Assembly (NCBI RefSeq): GCF_000015665.1 | Contig: NC_008817.1 | Location: 806,001-870,000 of the forward strand | Origin: Prochlorococcus marinus str. MIT 9515 | GTDB lineage: Bacteria > Cyanobacteriota > Cyanobacteriia > PCC-6307 > Cyanobiaceae | Length of the DNA stretch: 64,000 nt | Direction: 5' to 3' | In this document: positions 18,680 through 41,124 of the stretch, in pieces | Position numbering within the stretch: the stretch's first letter is position 1 | Layout of the letters: every line of letters begins with the position of its first letter | The notes under the pieces: model-generated | Databases searched by the model: none | The model's input: the letters and a program-made list of their open reading frames with translations, nothing else | What the model was told of the DNA's origin: nothing | Position numbers and translations under genes: made by a program

Positions 18680-19639
18680 TTAATTAATCCCAATTAATTT
18701 CTGACCATTTAATCTTTGCAGAATTCTAGAAATGATTAATTTGAGAGTTATTCTTTTTTCATCTATTAAAAATGATTCAATCACACTTGGTTTTTGATTA
18801 GATTTACATAACGAAATACTTTTTGATGAGCTTATGTCTTCTTTCTCAAAGGATAGCCAGAAATTACATATGTCTTTTATTTCGCAGAAAACAACCCAAC
18901 ATTTATCTCCAGCAATTGGTCTTGATGTGTTTTTTAGATTAATTTCTTTAACTTCAAATCCTCTTAATTTAAATTCCTGAATTATTGAAGGTAGTAAATG
19001 TTCATTAATAAATTCTTTAAAAGGTTTTTTTTCAATAGGAATTTCCTTTTTTGGCTTTATTTTTAAAGGTTTTAAATTTTCCTCTGCAACTTTTTCTTTA
19101 TTAATATCTTTGTTTACTTCTTTTGAATTTTCTTTTGCAACTTTTTCTTTATTAATATCTTTGTTTACTTCTTTTGAATTTTCTTTGGAAACTTTTTCTT
19201 TATTAATATCTTTGTTTACTTCTTTTGAATTCTCCTCTGAAATTTTTTCTTCATTAATTTCTTTGTTTACTTCATTTGATTTTTCTTTGGCAACTTTTTC
19301 TTCATTAATTTCTATGTTAACTTCATTTGAATTTTCTTTTGCAACTTTTTCTTCATTAATTTCTTTGTTAACTTCATTTGATTTTTCTTTGGCAACTTTT
19401 TCTTTATTAATATCTTTGTTTACTTCTTTTGAATTCTCCTCTGAAATTTTTTCTTCATTAATTTCTATGTTAACTTCATTTGAATTTTCTTTTGCAACTT
19501 TTTCTTCATTAATTTCTTTGTTTACTTCATTTGATTTTTCTTTGGCAACTTTTTCTTTATTAGTATTCTTGTTATCCTTTTTAAAAGTATCTTTTTCATT
19601 AATATAACTATCTCCTATAGAATCTACATTTTCTTCCAT
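18680..19639 (-). CDS. DUF2996 protein with nine 17-residue charged repeats
   Basis: The C-terminal 120 residues (about 200-319) match the cyanobacterial and plastid DUF2996 family: PFKEFINEHLLPSIIQEF, then AGDKCWVVFCEI and a C-terminal RLNGQKLIG. The N-terminal half is low-complexity: residues 28-180 consist of nine tandem 17-residue units of the type KEKVAKE(K/N)SNEVNKEIN, and residues 181-188 begin a tenth. The units are highly charged and probably helical or disordered. No signal peptide is present. The function is unknown. It lies 84 bp downstream of acsF's start side and 78 bp from the next gene. Confidence 0.8.
   Translation of the reverse strand: MEENVDSIGDSYINEKDTFKKDNKNTNKEKVAKEKSNEVNKEINEEKVAKENSNEVNIEINEEKISEENSKEVNKDINKEKVAKEKSNEVNKEINEEKVAKENSNEVNIEINEEKVAKEKSNEVNKEINEEKISEENSKEVNKDINKEKVSKENSKEVNKDINKEKVAKENSKEVNKDINKEKVAEENLKPLKIKPKKEIPIEKKPFKEFINEHLLPSIIQEFKLRGFEVKEINLKNTSRPIAGDKCWVVFCEIKDICNFWLSFEKEDISSSKSISLCKSNQKPSVIESFLIDEKRITLKLIISRILQRLNGQKLIGIN
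19076..19558 (-). repeat. In-frame 51-bp minisatellite (nine full copies plus a partial one)
   Basis: The repeats encode 17-residue units in the DUF2996 protein. Unit types recur in a higher-order pattern: units 1-3 (KEKVAKEKS.., EEKVAKENS.., EEKISEENS..) reappear as units 4, 5 and 7, with one extra copy inserted. That pattern suggests past unequal exchange or slippage of blocks larger than one unit. All copies keep the frame. Confidence 0.95.
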
Positions 19640-25084: not shown

Positions 25085-26839
25085 GTGTTCTTTAAATCAA
25101 ATTTTTCTTATTCAAATTCTAATAAAAGTTATTCTGATCTCATATTAGAACTAGATTCGGGAAACATAGAATCAATATATTTCTATCCTCGAAAGAGAGA
25201 AATCGATGTTTTGTACAAGAATGGGAGAAAGGAAAAAGTACCCATACTATACAATGACCAATTAATTCTTGAAAAAGCATCTGAAAATAATGTTGATCTA
25301 ACTATCAATAACAGTCGTAAAGAATATTCGGCAGCAAATTCAATAGCATCAATTGGACTCTTTTTTATTTTTTTAATAGCTATAGTTTTAATATTGAGAA
25401 GCACTTCTAAACTTGCTTCGAGAGCTTTAGGTTTTGGAAAAAGTAAATCTAAATTTGTCACCATTGATGATGTTGATACACGATTTGATGATGTTGCAGG
25501 AGTCCCTGAAGCAGCGGAAGAATTAAAAGAAGTTATTAAATTTCTTAATGAACCAAAAAGGTTTACAGATTTAGGAGCAAAAGTGCCCAAGGGTGTTTTA
25601 TTAATTGGTCCTCCTGGAACTGGTAAAACATTATTAGCTAAAGCAATTGCAGGTGAGTCAGGAGTTCCTTTTCTTTCTATAGCTGCTTCAGAATTTGTTG
25701 AACTATTTGTTGGTGTTGGTGCAAGTAGAGTTAGAGACTTATTTGTAAAAGCAAAAGAAAAGTCTCCATGTATTATATTTATTGATGAGATTGACTCTAT
25801 CGGTAGACAAAGAGGCTCAGGAATAGGCGGAGGTAATGATGAAAGAGAGCAAACTCTTAATCAGCTTTTAACAGAACTAGATGGGTTTTCAGATAATTCA
25901 GGAATAATCGTTATAGCTGCCACAAATAGGCCAGATATTCTTGACTCAGCTCTTCTAAGGCCAGGACGATTTGACAGAAAAATTGAAGTCATGTTACCTG
26001 ATTTAGATGGTAGAAAGAAAATACTTTCAGTTCATTCCTTATCGAAACCACTTTCAAAAAATGTAGATTTGGGATATTGGGCTACACGAACAGTAGGTTT
26101 TTCAGGAGCTGATCTAGCAAATTTAATGAATGAAAGCGCTATTCATTGTGCTAGAGAGGAATCTAAATTAATTTGTGATATCCATATAGAAAATGCTTTA
26201 GATAAAGTTACTTTAGGTCTACGTACATCAATTATTTCATCTCATAATATGAAAAAAATAATTGCTTATAACGAGGTTGGACGTGCAATTGTATCAGCCG
26301 TTAAAAATGGTATTGATTCAGTTGATAAAATAACAATTCTTCCGAGATCTGGTTATTTAGGCGGTTATACTAAATTAAATCCAGACGAAGATATTGTATC
26401 AAGTGGATTAATTTCGAAGAAATTATTATTATCTAAAATTGAAATAGCTTTGGCAGGCAGAGCTGCTGAAACAATAGTATTTGGCAAAAATGAAATTACT
26501 CAATGCTCAATTAATGACATATCTTATGCGACAAACATTGTTAGAGAGATGGTAACTAAATATGGATTTTCTATAATAGGTCCTCTATCTCTTGAAAGTC
26601 GTAACAATAATTTCATGGGAGATGGTTTTGTTAGAAATAATTCAATAATAGCCGACAATACTTACTCCAAAATAGATAATGAAATTATTAATATTTCAAA
26701 AATTTCTCTCAATAATGCTATTAATATTTTAAGTAAAAACAGAATATTATTAGACAAATTAGTTGAAATTTTAATCAATAAAGAAACTATAGATAATAAT
26801 ACTTTTAAAAAAATAACTCATAATTTGTTAAAAGTATGA
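25085..26839 (+). CDS. FtsH-like AAA protein lacking the protease zinc motif
   Basis: This 584-residue FtsH homologue has an intact AAA ATPase: Walker A GPPGTGKT (175-182), Walker B IIFIDEID (230-237) and second region of homology NRPDILDSALLRPGRFDR (281-298). In the peptidase domain the HEAGH zinc motif reads NEVGR (396-400), so both zinc histidines are gone, while the downstream aspartate (478) remains. Only one membrane span is visible (about 88-104); the usual N-terminal first span is missing, and an in-frame stop lies just upstream of the GTG start. It resembles the inactive FtsHi proteins of plastids. It probably unfolds or remodels membrane proteins, perhaps together with active FtsH encoded elsewhere. 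Confidence 0.9.
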   Translation: MFFKSNFSYSNSNKSYSDLILELDSGNIESIYFYPRKREIDVLYKNGRKEKVPILYNDQLILEKASENNVDLTINNSRKEYSAANSIASIGLFFIFLIAIVLILRSTSKLASRALGFGKSKSKFVTIDDVDTRFDDVAGVPEAAEELKEVIKFLNEPKRFTDLGAKVPKGVLLIGPPGTGKTLLAKAIAGESGVPFLSIAASEFVELFVGVGASRVRDLFVKAKEKSPCIIFIDEIDSIGRQRGSGIGGGNDEREQTLNQLLTELDGFSDNSGIIVIAATNRPDILDSALLRPGRFDRKIEVMLPDLDGRKKILSVHSLSKPLSKNVDLGYWATRTVGFSGADLANLMNESAIHCAREESKLICDIHIENALDKVTLGLRTSIISSHNMKKIIAYNEVGRAIVSAVKNGIDSVDKITILPRSGYLGGYTKLNPDEDIVSSGLISKKLLLSKIEIALAGRAAETIVFGKNEITQCSINDISYATNIVREMVTKYGFSIIGPLSLESRNNNFMGDGFVRNNSIIADNTYSKIDNEIINISKISLNNAINILSKNRILLDKLVEILINKETIDNNTFKKITHNLLKV

Positions 26840-36765: not shown

Positions 36766-39228
36766 ATGAAGGTTTCTCAAAATTGGTTAAAATCCCTTGT
36801 AGATATAAATACTTCACCTGAAGATTTATCTGAAAAATTATCAATCGGCGGATTTGAAGTTGAGTCTCTTATTAATTGCTCAGAAAATGTTAAAGGAGTT
36901 GTCTTAGGAAAAGTTATATCAGTAGTTAAACATGATAATTCTGATAAATTATCTATCTGTAATGTTGATATTGGAAGCTCGAATTCTCTACAAATAGTAT
37001 GTGGAGCAAAAAATGTAAAAGCAAATATATATGTCTATGTTGCTACTGTTGGAGTCCATTTAAACGCAATCAATTTAACTATCAAAAAGAGTGAAATAAG
37101 AGGAACTTTGAGCGAAGGAATGATATGTTCATTAGAGGAGTTGGGAATTGAAGATAATAGTGAAGGTATTGCTATTATTGAGGAGGAAAAGGCTTCAAAG
37201 CATATATTAGGTACCCCTGCTGCCCTTTTACTTGATTTGAACGATTACGTATACGATCTAGCTATAACTGCTAATAGACCTGATGGAATGTCTGTTGTTG
37301 GAATTGCTAGAGAAATATCCGCTCTTCTGGAAACAAATTTAAATCTTCCAAAAATAAAAAATGTATACGAAATTAATGTTCATAAGGATTTTGATCTGTG
37401 CACTGAGGCTATTACAAAAAAATGTCTTTATTCAATTAGTAAAATTGTATCTGTGAGTGGTAAGAAAATTACTCCTCAATGGATTAAAGATCGTTTAGAT
37501 AAATCTGGGATTAATTCGATTAATCTTTTGGTGGATATAACTAACTTCATACTTTTAGAGCAAGGTCAACCATTACATGCATTCGATTTCGATAAATTAA
37601 CAAATTTAGTTGGTAGAGAGGTTTTACCTGAAGATTTTTCTGTTAGAAAAGCAAAGGAAAACGAAAGTTTATTGTGTTTAAATGGTGAGATTTATAAATT
37701 AAATGAAAACATAACAATTATTGCTTGTGATGATAAGCCAGTTGCCATAGCGGGTGTGATTGGTGGTTTGCAAACAGCTGTGGATAAAGAAACATCTTCA
37801 ATTTATCTTGAAGGTGCTGTTTTTAATCCCGTTACAATAAGAAAATCAGTAAAAGAAATTGGAGTTAGAACAGAATCTAGTAGTAGATATGAAAAAGGAA
37901 TCTCTTTTAAAAATACATTAAATTCTGTAAGCCGCGCTATCAATATAATAGAGGAGTACTTTAATATTACGAAACCTGTAATTCATACTTCAATAGATTT
38001 ACCGAATACCGAAATATTAATACCACTAAGGAGAAATAGAATTCACAAACTACTTGGTCCTTTGGCAATTAGAAATAACGATTATGAGATGAATGGTCAA
38101 ATACAAAAGAGAAATTTATCAGATAAAGAAATAACAGATAAATTAAAGCTAATTGGTTGTAAATTAAATAATAAAGAATATGGATGGGATGTTGAAGTTA
38201 TTCCCAACAGGTCGCAAGACTTAGTAAGAGAAATAGATTTGATAGAGGAAATTGCACGGTTAATAGGTTATGACATGTTTGATTTTAATTTGCCAAATCC
38301 TATAAAACCAGGAAAACTTTCTTCTTCTCAAATAGCACTAAGGAAGTTAAAAACTGGATTTATAGATAATGGCTTTAACGAAGTGTTGTCTTATTCTCTT
38401 GTTCCAGAGACTAATAATGATTTAATAAAAATTTCAAATCCATTATTAACTGAAACAAGTTGCTTAAGAGATAATATCTGGCAAGAACACATTAAAATTT
38501 GTAATCAAAATATAAATTCAGGATATGATTATTGTTGGATATTTGAAGTTGGAAATATATTTCATAAAAAACCTGACATATCACAAGAAGAAATCTTAAA
38601 TGGAGCAATTTATGGAAATAACAAATTCGATAAATGGTACAGATCAAGTAAAGATGAAAATTTGAACTACTACGAAGCAAGAGGAAAGTTAAAGGAAGCA
38701 TTAACGCTTTTAAATATATCAATTGAAGATAAGCCAACTGATTCAATAGATTTTCTTCATCCAGGTAGGACTGCCAAGTTATTTACTGAAGGTAAAGAAG
38801 TTGGTTATTTTGGAGAAATTCATCCAAAATTAGTCTCGAATAAAAAGGCATTAAAAAAAATGTACCTCTTTAGTTTGAAAATACCCAATATTTTAAATGC
38901 ATGTACTAGAAAAAATAAATGGATACCAGTTTATAAACAATTTCCTACAGTTCCAAAAATGGAACGAGATATTAATTTTATATTCAATAAAAAATACTTA
39001 GTAAATGAGATAGTCTCACAAATAAAGAAATCTGGCAAAAAATTATTAGAAGAAGTTAATTTAATTGATGTTTATGACGATAATAGTTTTGGTAATGATT
39101 TCATAAGCTATACATTTAGATTGTCATATAGAGATTCTGAAAAAACATTATTAGATTCTGATATCGTTGATCTACATGAAAACATAGTTGAAATTATTGA
39201 AAAAAAATTCTCCACAAAATTAAGATAG
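36766..39228 (+). CDS. pheT: Phenylalanine-tRNA ligase beta subunit
   Basis: PheT is the large subunit of phenylalanyl-tRNA synthetase. Domains in order are the EMAP-type tRNA-binding domain (about residues 38-150), B3/B4 with the editing site (about 205-380), B5 (about 400-500), the catalytic-like core, and the C-terminal ferredoxin-fold anticodon domain (about 725-820, with FPTVPKMERDINF). The 820 residues match the family. It is transcribed away from rpmG. The alpha subunit is not in this window. Confidence 0.96.
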   Translation: MKVSQNWLKSLVDINTSPEDLSEKLSIGGFEVESLINCSENVKGVVLGKVISVVKHDNSDKLSICNVDIGSSNSLQIVCGAKNVKANIYVYVATVGVHLNAINLTIKKSEIRGTLSEGMICSLEELGIEDNSEGIAIIEEEKASKHILGTPAALLLDLNDYVYDLAITANRPDGMSVVGIAREISALLETNLNLPKIKNVYEINVHKDFDLCTEAITKKCLYSISKIVSVSGKKITPQWIKDRLDKSGINSINLLVDITNFILLEQGQPLHAFDFDKLTNLVGREVLPEDFSVRKAKENESLLCLNGEIYKLNENITIIACDDKPVAIAGVIGGLQTAVDKETSSIYLEGAVFNPVTIRKSVKEIGVRTESSSRYEKGISFKNTLNSVSRAINIIEEYFNITKPVIHTSIDLPNTEILIPLRRNRIHKLLGPLAIRNNDYEMNGQIQKRNLSDKEITDKLKLIGCKLNNKEYGWDVEVIPNRSQDLVREIDLIEEIARLIGYDMFDFNLPNPIKPGKLSSSQIALRKLKTGFIDNGFNEVLSYSLVPETNNDLIKISNPLLTETSCLRDNIWQEHIKICNQNINSGYDYCWIFEVGNIFHKKPDISQEEILNGAIYGNNKFDKWYRSSKDENLNYYEARGKLKEALTLLNISIEDKPTDSIDFLHPGRTAKLFTEGKEVGYFGEIHPKLVSNKKALKKMYLFSLKIPNILNACTRKNKWIPVYKQFPTVPKMERDINFIFNKKYLVNEIVSQIKKSGKKLLEEVNLIDVYDDNSFGNDFISYTFRLSYRDSEKTLLDSDIVDLHENIVEIIEKKFSTKLR

Positions 39229-39241
39229 CAGCATTATCGTA

Positions 39242-39269
39242 AGTCTTATAATAGACTAATAATAGGTCT
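39242..39269 (+). repeat. AGTCT/AGACT/GGTCT half-site cluster around a TATAAT box
   Basis: AGTCT (39242-39246), AGACT (39253-39257) and GGTCT (39265-39269) stand with spacers of 6 and 7 bases. The first two are inverted and bracket TATAAT (39247-39252) exactly. The same half-sites with the same 7- and 6-base spacers recur at 39730 and 39930. Confidence 0.55.
39247..39252 (+). promoter_or_regulatory. TATAAT -10 box upstream of the 84-aa secreted-type gene
   Basis: A perfect TATAAT lies 79 bases before the ATG at 39331 and 19 bases after the pheT stop. It forms the loop of an AGTCT/AGACT inverted repeat, so a protein bound to these half-sites would cover the promoter. No consensus -35 box is present. 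Confidence 0.45.
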
Positions 39270-39330
39270 AATATTAATTCTTATATGAGATAGTTAATAT
39301 TCATATAAAAACAACTAATCTTATATAATA

Positions 39331-39585
39331 ATGATCATGATAAATATACTCTCTTTTTTAATTTCATCCGTACTGTGGGTTCAAGTTCCTCAATGGGCTG
39401 ATGACTGGTCTAAATGTGCAGTTGATGTGCCAGACTCGTCATGCCATTGGTATATTACAGCCCCAGATAATACATTCGGAGAAGGTTTTGATTGGGCCAA
39501 TGCTCCTTGGTTTGATGCAAATGGATTGAGTGACATACCCAGCATTGATAAACAAACTGCAATTGAGAAATTACAAACTTCGTAG
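39331..39585 (+). CDS. Small protein with N-terminal span, function unknown (84 aa)
   Basis: The N-terminal 18 residues are hydrophobic (MINILSFLISSVLWVQV) and could be a signal or anchor. The remainder is tryptophan-rich and acidic: PQWADDWSKCAVDVPDSSC, then HWYITAPDNTFGEGFDW and a helical end. The two cysteines (about residues 29 and 37) may form a disulfide outside the cytoplasm. The ordered composition shows a real gene. Half-sites of AGACT/AGTCT lie both upstream and downstream. A second ATG at 39337 is an alternative start. Confidence 0.7.
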   Translation: MIMINILSFLISSVLWVQVPQWADDWSKCAVDVPDSSCHWYITAPDNTFGEGFDWANAPWFDANGLSDIPSIDKQTAIEKLQTS

Positions 39586-39729
39586 TACTGTCTATAAGGC
39601 AGATCCTTGTTCTCGTAAATACAGTTATATCAGTCTATAAATTAATTAATCTTATTTTTGGACACTTGAAGGACTTAATTTATAAAATATTCTAAGATGT
39701 ATTACAAATCTAATAATAGAATCAGAGTA

Positions 39730-39757
39730 AGACTATTTATTAGTCTAGTTTAAGACT
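39730..39757. repeat. AGACT-7-AGTCT-6-AGACT half-site array, copy 1
   Basis: AGACT at 39730-39734, AGTCT at 39742-39746 and AGACT at 39753-39757. The first two are inverted and could form AGACTA/TAGTCT hairpins. One base away from consensus, AGAAT lies 12 bases upstream at 39718, continuing the 12-base rhythm. Confidence 0.6.
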
Positions 39758-39929
39758 GTTGATATCAAAATTTCTCTATTCAATAATTAGTGTTTTCTAT
39801 TTAAACTAGCCTTAAATTCGACTATCGAGGTCTGCTGTGATTATTTAATAAGAGATTTGTTTATTACTTAAGCTGTTAAATAAAACTAAGATTTATATGT
39901 CTTAATTTTCTTTTTTTGGACTAAATAAT

Positions 39930-39957
39930 AGACTTAATCTTAGTCTCATATAAGACT
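39930..39957. repeat. AGACT-7-AGTCT-6-AGACT half-site array, copy 2
   Basis: AGACT at 39930-39934, AGTCT at 39942-39946 and AGACT at 39953-39957: the same order and the same spacers as copy 1, exactly 200 bases away. GGACT at 39918-39922 continues the 12-base rhythm upstream. Spacer sequences differ from copy 1, so this is not a simple duplication. Confidence 0.6.
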
Positions 39958-39961
39958 ACTG

Positions 39962-40978
39962 CTACTTCTTTCTGTATAGGTTTTTAAGTAACTGATATGC
40001 ATCGTTTAACTTCCTCATTTCATCAGTTGATCCTCCTGCGTCTGGATGAGTTTCTAAAGCTATAGTCTTATATGCCTCTCTAATTTTATTTAAAGTATGA
40101 GCTGAACCTGCCGCTGTTGATAATTTTAATAATTTTAAAGCACTATGAACTGTCATTGTTGAATCCAATGCTTCAAAAGAATTTCCTTTGTTTTTTCTTT
40201 TAAATCTGCTTACAAATCTTCTTACTAATGTTGGTACTCTGTTTATTAAATCAGCTGTCGCAAATGGATCTTCCAAGACTCCTATCATTAAAATGACTAA
40301 TTCTAAGGAAGGCGTTTGTTTGACCCAAAAGGGGCAAAGTTCAGAAATTAATTTGTTGGCTGCACTCCATGTGAATGGTAATTGTTCAGTTCCATCTATA
40401 TTGGGCCATATATCTATACAGAACCAATCCATTGATGCTTCTATTATCTGTTCATTCGGAATAGTTCCATATAAATTTTTCCAATGGCTAATTATTTCAA
40501 TTCGACATTTTATTAAGTCATTTTCTTTGATCGTATTAATTTGAATATCATTAATATTTTGTTGTGTCTTTTCTATATTTATACTTCTCCTAAGATTTCT
40601 AACTTTTTTTCCTACAAAATTAGGTAAGTTGATGTTTAAATTTGGTTTTTCAATAACTTTTTTATTATTTATGGGGATTTTTACTTCAAAATCTTTTTTA
40701 ATTTTCTCTTCTTTATCCGATTTAATTAGAACTAAAGCATTATTTTCATCAAAGTTAGAATAATCATTTATGTTTTCCTTACCGCCATAATCTATTGATT
40801 GTTGTTGATGTTTAGGTAATAAATCTTCTTCTTGAAGAAGTTCTGTTAGCAACTTTTCTATTACAGGACCTCTTGCTCTAAAACCCCATTCTTTTCGTAA
40901 TTGATCGAACCTAGAAATTAATTCTTCTGGCAAATCAATTGAAATCCTTTTAGTATTTGAATTCTCAGAAGTACTCAA
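39962..40978 (-). CDS. J-domain protein with ribbon-helix-helix-like N-terminus
   Basis: This 338-residue protein joins two regulators' parts. Residues about 9-50 (TKRISIDLPEELISRFDQLR, then RGPVIEKLLTELLQ) fit a ribbon-helix-helix DNA-binding fold. Residues about 290-338 form a C-terminal J domain with IREAYKTIALETHPDAGG (HPD at 311-313) and LNDAYQLLK; it looks short and lacks helix I length. The middle (about 155-265) is a helical region of unknown type, preceded by a charged linker. J domains recruit Hsp70/DnaK. The gene ends four bases from half-site array copy 2. I infer a DnaK-linked DNA-binding protein. Confidence 0.75.
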   Translation of the reverse strand: MSTSENSNTKRISIDLPEELISRFDQLRKEWGFRARGPVIEKLLTELLQEEDLLPKHQQQSIDYGGKENINDYSNFDENNALVLIKSDKEEKIKKDFEVKIPINNKKVIEKPNLNINLPNFVGKKVRNLRRSINIEKTQQNINDIQINTIKENDLIKCRIEIISHWKNLYGTIPNEQIIEASMDWFCIDIWPNIDGTEQLPFTWSAANKLISELCPFWVKQTPSLELVILMIGVLEDPFATADLINRVPTLVRRFVSRFKRKNKGNSFEALDSTMTVHSALKLLKLSTAAGSAHTLNKIREAYKTIALETHPDAGGSTDEMRKLNDAYQLLKNLYRKK

Positions 40979-41124
40979 TTAATCTTTTTTTTTATAATAG
41001 AACAAAAAATTAATTGTATTAATAATATGAAAGTCTATATAAACATATTGTCTTTAAATCAGAATCAAATCTTATTTCAGTCACAAGTAAATTAAAAAAA
41101 TTTTTATAATATAAAGAAAAAAAA

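Follow-up and report, generated by a model that had tools for sequence, protein, structure and literature searches.

Half-site arrays linked to the gene for a ribbon-helix-helix and J-domain protein: a candidate terminus site of picocyanobacterial chromosomes

We describe here a module of picocyanobacterial chromosomes that consists of arrays of evenly spaced 5-bp half-sites and the adjacent gene for a protein, which we call RHHJ, that combines a ribbon-helix-helix (RHH) domain with a J domain. The module was found in a stretch of 64,000 nucleotides of the Prochlorococcus marinus MIT 9515 chromosome, hereafter the window (bases 806,001-870,000 of a single-contig genome of 1,704,176 bp); coordinates below are window positions unless another locus or genome is named. 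By gene content the window belongs to a high-light Prochlorococcus, and Prochlorococcus strains are also its closest named relatives. The module is real: the arrays and their spacing are conserved, they are linked to the RHHJ gene, and they lie close to the replication terminus indicated by GC skew. Quite probably the arrays are a cis-acting terminus site of some kind. Our preferred account of the whole, in which RHHJ would bind the site in the manner of a plasmid centromere or of MatP/matS and recruit DnaK to it, has in our judgment not quite an even chance of being correct.

Picocyanobacteria are the smallest photosynthetic bacteria of the ocean and the most abundant photosynthetic cells on Earth, and little is known about how their chromosomes finish replication and separate. 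In the accessible portion of one survey, dif prediction succeeded in none of five Cyanobacteria (PMC3025954). Extracts of two other papers call xerC rare in the phylum (PMC5101192) and the terminus of Synechococcus elongatus not clearly defined by GC skew (PMC3480399).

Three half-site arrays lie between pheT and RHHJ

All three arrays in the window sit between pheT and the convergent 338-aa RHHJ gene. They follow the template AGTCT-6-AGACT-7-AGWCT-7-AGTCT-6-AGACT, in which five 5-bp half-sites are arranged over 51 bp symmetrically about the middle one, with steps of 11, 12, 12 and 11 bp, each approximately one helical turn. Array 1, on the RHHJ side (TTTCT-6-GGACT-7-AGACT-7-AGTCT-6-AGACT, 39907-39957), lies 4 bases past the stop of RHHJ, a gene on the minus strand, and scores 47.2 bits against our array matrix. 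The middle array 2 (AATCT-6-AGAAT-7-AGACT-7-AGTCT-6-AGACT, 39707-39757) scores 42.1 bits. Array 3, on the pheT side (AGTCT-6-AGACT-7-GGTCT-7-ATTCT-6-AGATA, 39242-39292), starts 13 bases past the end of pheT and scores 51.6 bits. No strand is assigned to any of them. A 19-position array pattern, allowed up to three mismatches and searched in 68 whole genomes, fits arrays 1 and 2 with one mismatch each and array 3 with two.

A preliminary description of this DNA, made from the sequence letters, had recorded AGACT-7-AGTCT-6-AGACT at 39730-39757 and, 200 bases away, at 39930-39957, the near-sites AGAAT (39718) and GGACT (39918), and AGTCT-6-AGACT-7-GGTCT at 39242-39269. Every one of these positions is exact, but the motifs are the best-preserved parts of the 51-bp arrays, which imperfect half-sites extend further. 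A lone AGTCT that it placed upstream of the RHHJ gene is indeed at 41032-41036 but belongs to no array, and its TATAAT box is the AT-rich spacer of an array, a part of the structure that varies between genomes.

In this genome the motifs gather at this locus more than chance would explain. The window holds 83 AGTCT/AGACT half-sites, and all five pairs spaced by 11 or 12 bp fall at the arrays. A genome-wide count of spaced pairs, which the preliminary description had proposed as a check, finds the 28-bp motif AGACT-7-AGTCT-6-AGACT twice, both times here (backwards control 0), and AGTCT-N6-AGACT at five places, three of them here (control 1). AGACT-N7-AGTCT occurs at four places, two of them here, against six in the control, and is thus not significantly enriched by itself. 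The 19-position pattern has three matches in this genome, all at the locus (control 0), and a matrix scan gave no further array elsewhere in the window and none that reached 12 bits within the 400 kb of the genome that were sampled. An RNA family search of the region returned a single chance match to a miRNA (E 1.5), and a repeat finder run on five loci gave nothing useful.

The arrays are conserved across picocyanobacteria

Comparison with relatives, another check proposed at the outset, shows the arrays to be conserved in Prochlorococcus and in other genera, and linked to the RHHJ gene. The kilobase following the RHHJ stop codon in 53 Prochlorococcus loci contains 467 exact half-sites, compared with 96.4 in mononucleotide shuffles, and 358 of the 380 half-site pairs within 60 bp are spaced at 11, 12 or their sums up to 48. 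Template scoring finds three arrays in 49 of these loci and at least four in the other 4. Among 80 named Prochlorococcus loci, 76 have three arrays and four have four, with none elsewhere in their 679,518 bases. The matrices for this 80-locus scan, for the 200-kb scan below and for a first scan of the other genera were trained on genomes or loci overlapping those scanned. A matrix from whose training the tested group was excluded still detects two or more arrays, scoring above the highest of 20 shuffles, in each of 40 loci from other genera. Two arrays are present in 5 of these loci, three arrays in 9, four arrays in 21, five arrays in 3 and six arrays in 2; the weakest matches (3-10 bits) may be chance.

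Because half-sites are degenerate in the Synechococcus groups, an enrichment analysis of exact 5-mer pairs overlooked the arrays there; the template and the matrices found them. The template accepts the centre half-site in either orientation and is therefore slightly laxer than its shuffles, whose maxima were 14-18; it counts no more than three arrays per locus, or four in Prochlorococcus. The Synechococcus-side consensus consists of GTCTCAnnTGAGAC palindromes around a central AG[A/T]CT, and the middle half-site is found in either orientation. The consensus of 72 Synechococcus-side arrays, which had been picked by a symmetric half-site template, is symmetric without symmetrising. The half-site letters are much the same from 31 to 65% GC, and the spacers between them differ among genomes. 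Half-sites that could pair with each other do not covary positively (z from -4.0 to 1.5), so the arrays look like DNA sites read by a protein and not like RNA stems.

At its given strictness, the 19-position pattern matches in 53 of the 68 genomes and not in the other 15. In 10 Prochlorococcus genomes it has 33 matches, 30 at the locus and three elsewhere (backwards control 6), and outside the genus its counts (0-6) often hardly exceed those of the control (0-5). Among the matches listed outside Prochlorococcus, one, in genome G264, is far from its locus. A matrix scan of 200 kb around the locus found three arrays above 20 bits in genome G275 and five in G210, confined to within ~6 kb.

The arrays are linked to the RHHJ gene

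In the usual layout three to four arrays follow the RHHJ gene within ~0.5-1.1 kb, on the side of the convergent pheT, and in all 20 other-genus loci measured the first array begins 4-57 nt past the end of the RHHJ match. An extra array ~1.5 kb upstream of RHHJ (~2.56-2.59 kb before its stop) is present in all three of the g9 loci L097, L098 and L099; arrays can therefore flank the gene on both sides.

Two genomes from different genera, G310 and G288, are without a full-length RHHJ. In both, the 11 kb around pheT contain no array above the shuffled maxima, and the strict 19-position pattern matches nowhere in the whole of G310 and once in G288.

RHHJ has RHH and J-domain signatures and, among the genomes sampled, is full-length only in the family

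The RHHJ gene (39962-40978, minus strand, TTG start) encodes an RHH domain, a linker carrying the conserved motif LPxFV, a middle region that is likewise conserved, and a J domain. The RHH segment (residues 11-48; 40835-40948, minus strand) matches RHH_1 in the window protein with E 0.03 and 14.7 bits, under the curated cut-off of 20.5. The same model matches 16 of 21 RHHJ homologues, the best with E 1.3e-5. The J-domain segment (residues 295-333, with HPD at 311-313; 39980-40096, minus strand) matches PF00226 in the window protein with E 6.3e-6, its 26.6 bits falling just short of the 27.8-bit cut-off; all 21 homologues match (best E 2e-7) and HPD is invariant in all of them. The RHH-like segment at the start of this protein and the J domain proposed in the preliminary description are thus borne out as sequence signatures.

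Within the genus, 156 of the 200 genomes searched match RHHJ, a few of them weakly, and 64 of the 66 near-complete ones are among these. Across the order, a match is present in 148 of the 150 near-complete genomes. Of these 148 matches 146 are strong, and the two weak ones correspond to a remnant in genome G041 and to a J-domain part in G310. In a profile search of 244 genomes of the phylum, full-length RHHJ was present in all 25 members of the family and in none of the 219 genomes outside it, 51 of which have matches to the J-domain end and the rest none. We found no report of the arrays or of RHHJ, and nothing on an RHH and J-domain combination in cyanobacteria, in a literature search that left most subscription journals outside its coverage.

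The module is located near the replication terminus

The position of the module relative to dnaN, which begins at base 171 of the MIT 9515 genome, was determined for 64 single-contig genomes taken from the 150-genome order set. Expressed as a fraction of the circle, the dnaN-RHHJ distance is at least 0.45 in 57 and at least 0.40 in 62 of the 64 (genome sizes being rounded to 0.1 Mb in 42 of them), and the genus medians are at least 0.45 in 15 of 19 genera and at least 0.40 in 18. Cumulative GC skew, sampled over 200 kb, peaks near 1.30 Mb in G210, where the arrays lie at 1.2916-1.2952 Mb, and has a plateau at ~1.15-1.25 Mb in G275, where they lie at 1.1818-1.1876 Mb.

Two neighbouring genes were meant to serve as synteny controls. 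pheT (36766-39228 in the window, plus strand), the convergent neighbour, lies 0.5-6.0 kb from RHHJ in all 64 genomes (the pheT search also took in four others), and leuS lies ~18-56 kb from it, again in all 64. Both genes travel with RHHJ and are thus useless as controls. The strongest test separating linkage to the terminus from synteny is instead provided by the lopsided chromosome of G220, an outlier in which RHHJ lies at a distance of 0.332, with the arrays at 0.802 Mb and the antipode at 1.2 Mb. Skew in this genome is positive in all three stretches sampled from 0.30 to 0.50 Mb, mixed in the six between 0.58 and 0.86 Mb, and negative throughout the eleven between 0.88 and 2.0 Mb. The switch is therefore near the arrays and away from the antipode.

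Comparison with known systems

The RHHJ module fits none of the families named below, though it would work like several of them. MatP is an RHH protein that organises the E. coli terminus, with sites in the terminus region and a C-terminal region for protein contacts, as described in extracts of PMC12756933. The arrays likewise lie in the terminus region. The same extracts give more than 20 matS sites in the Ter region, in contrast to the few arrays within ~6 kb seen here (three in the window, three in G275, five in G210), and give MatP a central RHH domain and a C-terminal coiled coil, as PMC12756933 states, where RHHJ carries its RHH at the N-terminus and a J domain at the C-terminus. No MatP family, for which Pfam has a model, was among our Pfam or NCBIfam matches.

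The ATPase fold common to actin and Hsp70 is also that of DnaK, which brings the plasmid ParR/parC systems into the comparison. According to partial texts (PMC9426499, PMC5016525), ParR is an RHH protein on short iterons, of 11 bp in R1 and 10 bp in pB171, and the wrapped DNA forms a superstructure that serves an actin-like ATPase. We likewise observe half-sites next to an RHH gene at intervals of roughly one helical turn, with spacings of 11/12 bp. ParMRC differs in having direct repeats, on plasmids and upstream of the par operon, rather than half-sites in a symmetric arrangement of inverted and direct copies, located at the terminus of a chromosome and mostly downstream of the RHH gene; in RHHJ a J domain takes the place of the ParM-binding part. 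The omega/parS system of pSM19035 also pairs an RHH protein with three separate sites, of 9, 7 and 10 iterons, which, as a point of difference, overlap plasmid promoters, and omega binds direct and inverted repeats alike through the pseudo-symmetry of its dimer, all in the available part of PMC5016525. Such pseudo-symmetry fits a middle half-site that is found in either orientation. The omega/parS iterons are heptads without spacers, and omega is not known to have a J domain.

CdbA of Myxococcus xanthus is an RHH nucleoid protein whose depletion phenotype, in an excerpt of PMC10313047, involves DnaK-type chaperones (PilZ-DnaK). This chaperone link runs through a separate protein and not through a fused J domain. 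CdbA sites are not known to be confined to the terminus. The comparison with MetJ drawn in the preliminary description holds only as a distant analogy. MetJ is an RHH protein that acts on arrays of short boxes containing AGAC/GTCT, but Met boxes are contiguous 8-mers at the promoters of a regulon, whereas the arrays described here have 11/12-bp spacing, a 12-bp rhythm and a single locus near the terminus.

A possible mechanism and the evidence against it

On the preferred account, the RHHJ-bound terminus site, RHHJ dimers would bind the half-sites through the RHH domain and stack along each array as RHH centromere proteins do on iterons. They could then bridge the arrays into a nucleoprotein complex at the terminus, from which exposed J domains would recruit DnaK (Hsp70). 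DnaK might remodel or release this complex and so tie the completion of replication to segregation or division. The binding, the DnaK recruitment and the cellular role are what we infer here. A more specific version, by analogy with ParR/parC, is a terminus centromere driven by DnaK, in which RHHJ on the arrays would bring in Hsp70 through its fused J domain and sister termini would be separated or released; this version is possible, though we lean against it. Were the RHHJ-bound site correct, picocyanobacteria would have a sequence-defined terminus coordinate, with RHHJ, full-length in all sampled members of the family and in none of the sampled outsiders, as a candidate trans-factor and with a link between Hsp70 and chromosome dynamics that can be tested directly. 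The G220 chromosome would be useful for asking whether termination is site-defined.

A number of observations weigh against this account. A fold prediction for RHHJ from 31 close homologues was uninformative (pLDDT 45.7, pTM 0.24), and HPD is the only feature that ties the J domain to DnaK here. The constant company of pheT and leuS means that the terminus position may have been inherited with the block, so that position alone is no proof. The skew peak of G275 is broad, the switch zone of G220 is wide (~0.58-0.88 Mb), skew inside the window is noisy with no sharp switch, and the sampled skew of the MIT 9515 genome, noisy around the locus, is only roughly consistent with a terminus there. In addition, two Prochlorococcus genomes keep three good arrays without an intact RHHJ, which is a frame-broken remnant, shorter than the gene requires, in G041 (L125:10115-10570) and is deleted in G104 (L126:4345-4500). 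Both fall in one clade with RHHJ-bearing relatives in a tree that omits 6 of 55 loci. Identity between the G041 remnant and intact genes is 88-90%, compared with 94-97% among the intact genes themselves, so the loss looks fairly young and decay of the arrays would not be visible; half-site identity, 93-96% against 96-97% among intact relatives, is indistinguishable from theirs or from slow decay. In G104, intergenic alignment with relatives gives a half-site identity of 0.76-0.80, which we read as misalignment because the 19-position pattern fits these very arrays with no mismatch.

Alternative explanations

The arrays of G041 and G104 also speak for a terminus site with another main reader, such as a tyrosine recombinase acting on a dif-like site or another nucleoid protein; RHHJ would then be an accessory factor or a gene that is simply linked to the site. 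Of 15 genomes searched, 13 have open frames of 386-415 aa that match PF00589 and may encode Xer-like enzymes, possibly orthologous ones, and the failed dif predictions cited above leave room for such a site. However, dif spans 28 bp, an 11-bp arm lying on either side of a 6-bp centre, and multi-copy 51-bp arrays of five half-sites share with it only the 6-bp gap between inverted half-sites. The absence of arrays coincides with the absence of RHHJ in G310 and G288, and G288 has a recombinase frame (400 aa, under the family cut-off) yet no array beside pheT. The recombinase matches of the MIT 9515 genome, at 0.40 and 0.53 Mb, are far from the arrays. We consider another main reader unlikely. As an observation in its own right, a tyrosine recombinase match outside the window, at G000:C1:525547-525963, is a possible Xer-like enzyme.

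RHH repressors commonly act on operator arrays, and RHHJ could be an ordinary regulator of local genes (an 84-aa gene, itself and pheT) with the terminus position a by-product of synteny. Array 3 lies upstream of the 84-aa gene, an array lies upstream of RHHJ in all three g9 loci fetched with that side, and the region is syntenic, pheT and leuS staying near RHHJ. Against this, the arrays are mostly downstream of RHHJ, and the scans of the window and of the 400 kb sampled from its genome give no sign of a regulon. The preliminary description had inferred that the protein bound to the arrays controls the 84-aa gene, which is not supported as the main role of the arrays. The gene (39331-39585, plus strand), which belongs to high-light Prochlorococcus, lies within the array region but is not needed for it: no match to it was found within the fetched 7 kb in any of 20 other-genus loci, though arrays are there, and in G104, where the arrays are intact, it has an in-frame stop and 40% identity, which argues against its control as their purpose. 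Control of this gene by the arrays is unlikely, and we give the operator explanation as a whole a low probability. A replication fork trap, in which protein-bound arrays would stop forks and so fix the terminus, would account for the skew switch near the arrays of G220 despite their position at 0.33. The same skew would, however, be expected after a recent rearrangement of G220, and known traps of the Tus-Ter and RTP kind are polar, whereas the consensus of the 72 Synechococcus-side arrays is symmetric; we regard a fork trap as improbable. Finally, AGTCT and AGACT are mutually complementary, and the arrays begin just past the ends of RHHJ and, here, of pheT, as paired hairpins acting as bidirectional terminators or 3'-end processing sites might. 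We rejected this RNA explanation for the lack of covariation; the half-site letters are also stable over the whole GC range and some arrays are upstream of genes, and its chance of being correct is slight in the extreme.

Other features of the window

After the stop of the 84-aa gene, at 39584-39605, comes an inverted repeat (AGTACTGTCTTTAAGGCAGTACT-like) that is also found at L009:2922-2944 and L126:3891-3913. Its second arm is degraded in the MIT 9515 genome, and it is perhaps the terminator of that gene. Elsewhere in the window, positions 25085-26839 encode an FtsH-like AAA protein in which the expected HExxH motif reads NEVGR, and which we take to be a possibly inactive FtsH relative. The open reading frame at 18680-19639 contains a long internal tandem repeat made up of EVNKEINEEKVAKENS-like units.

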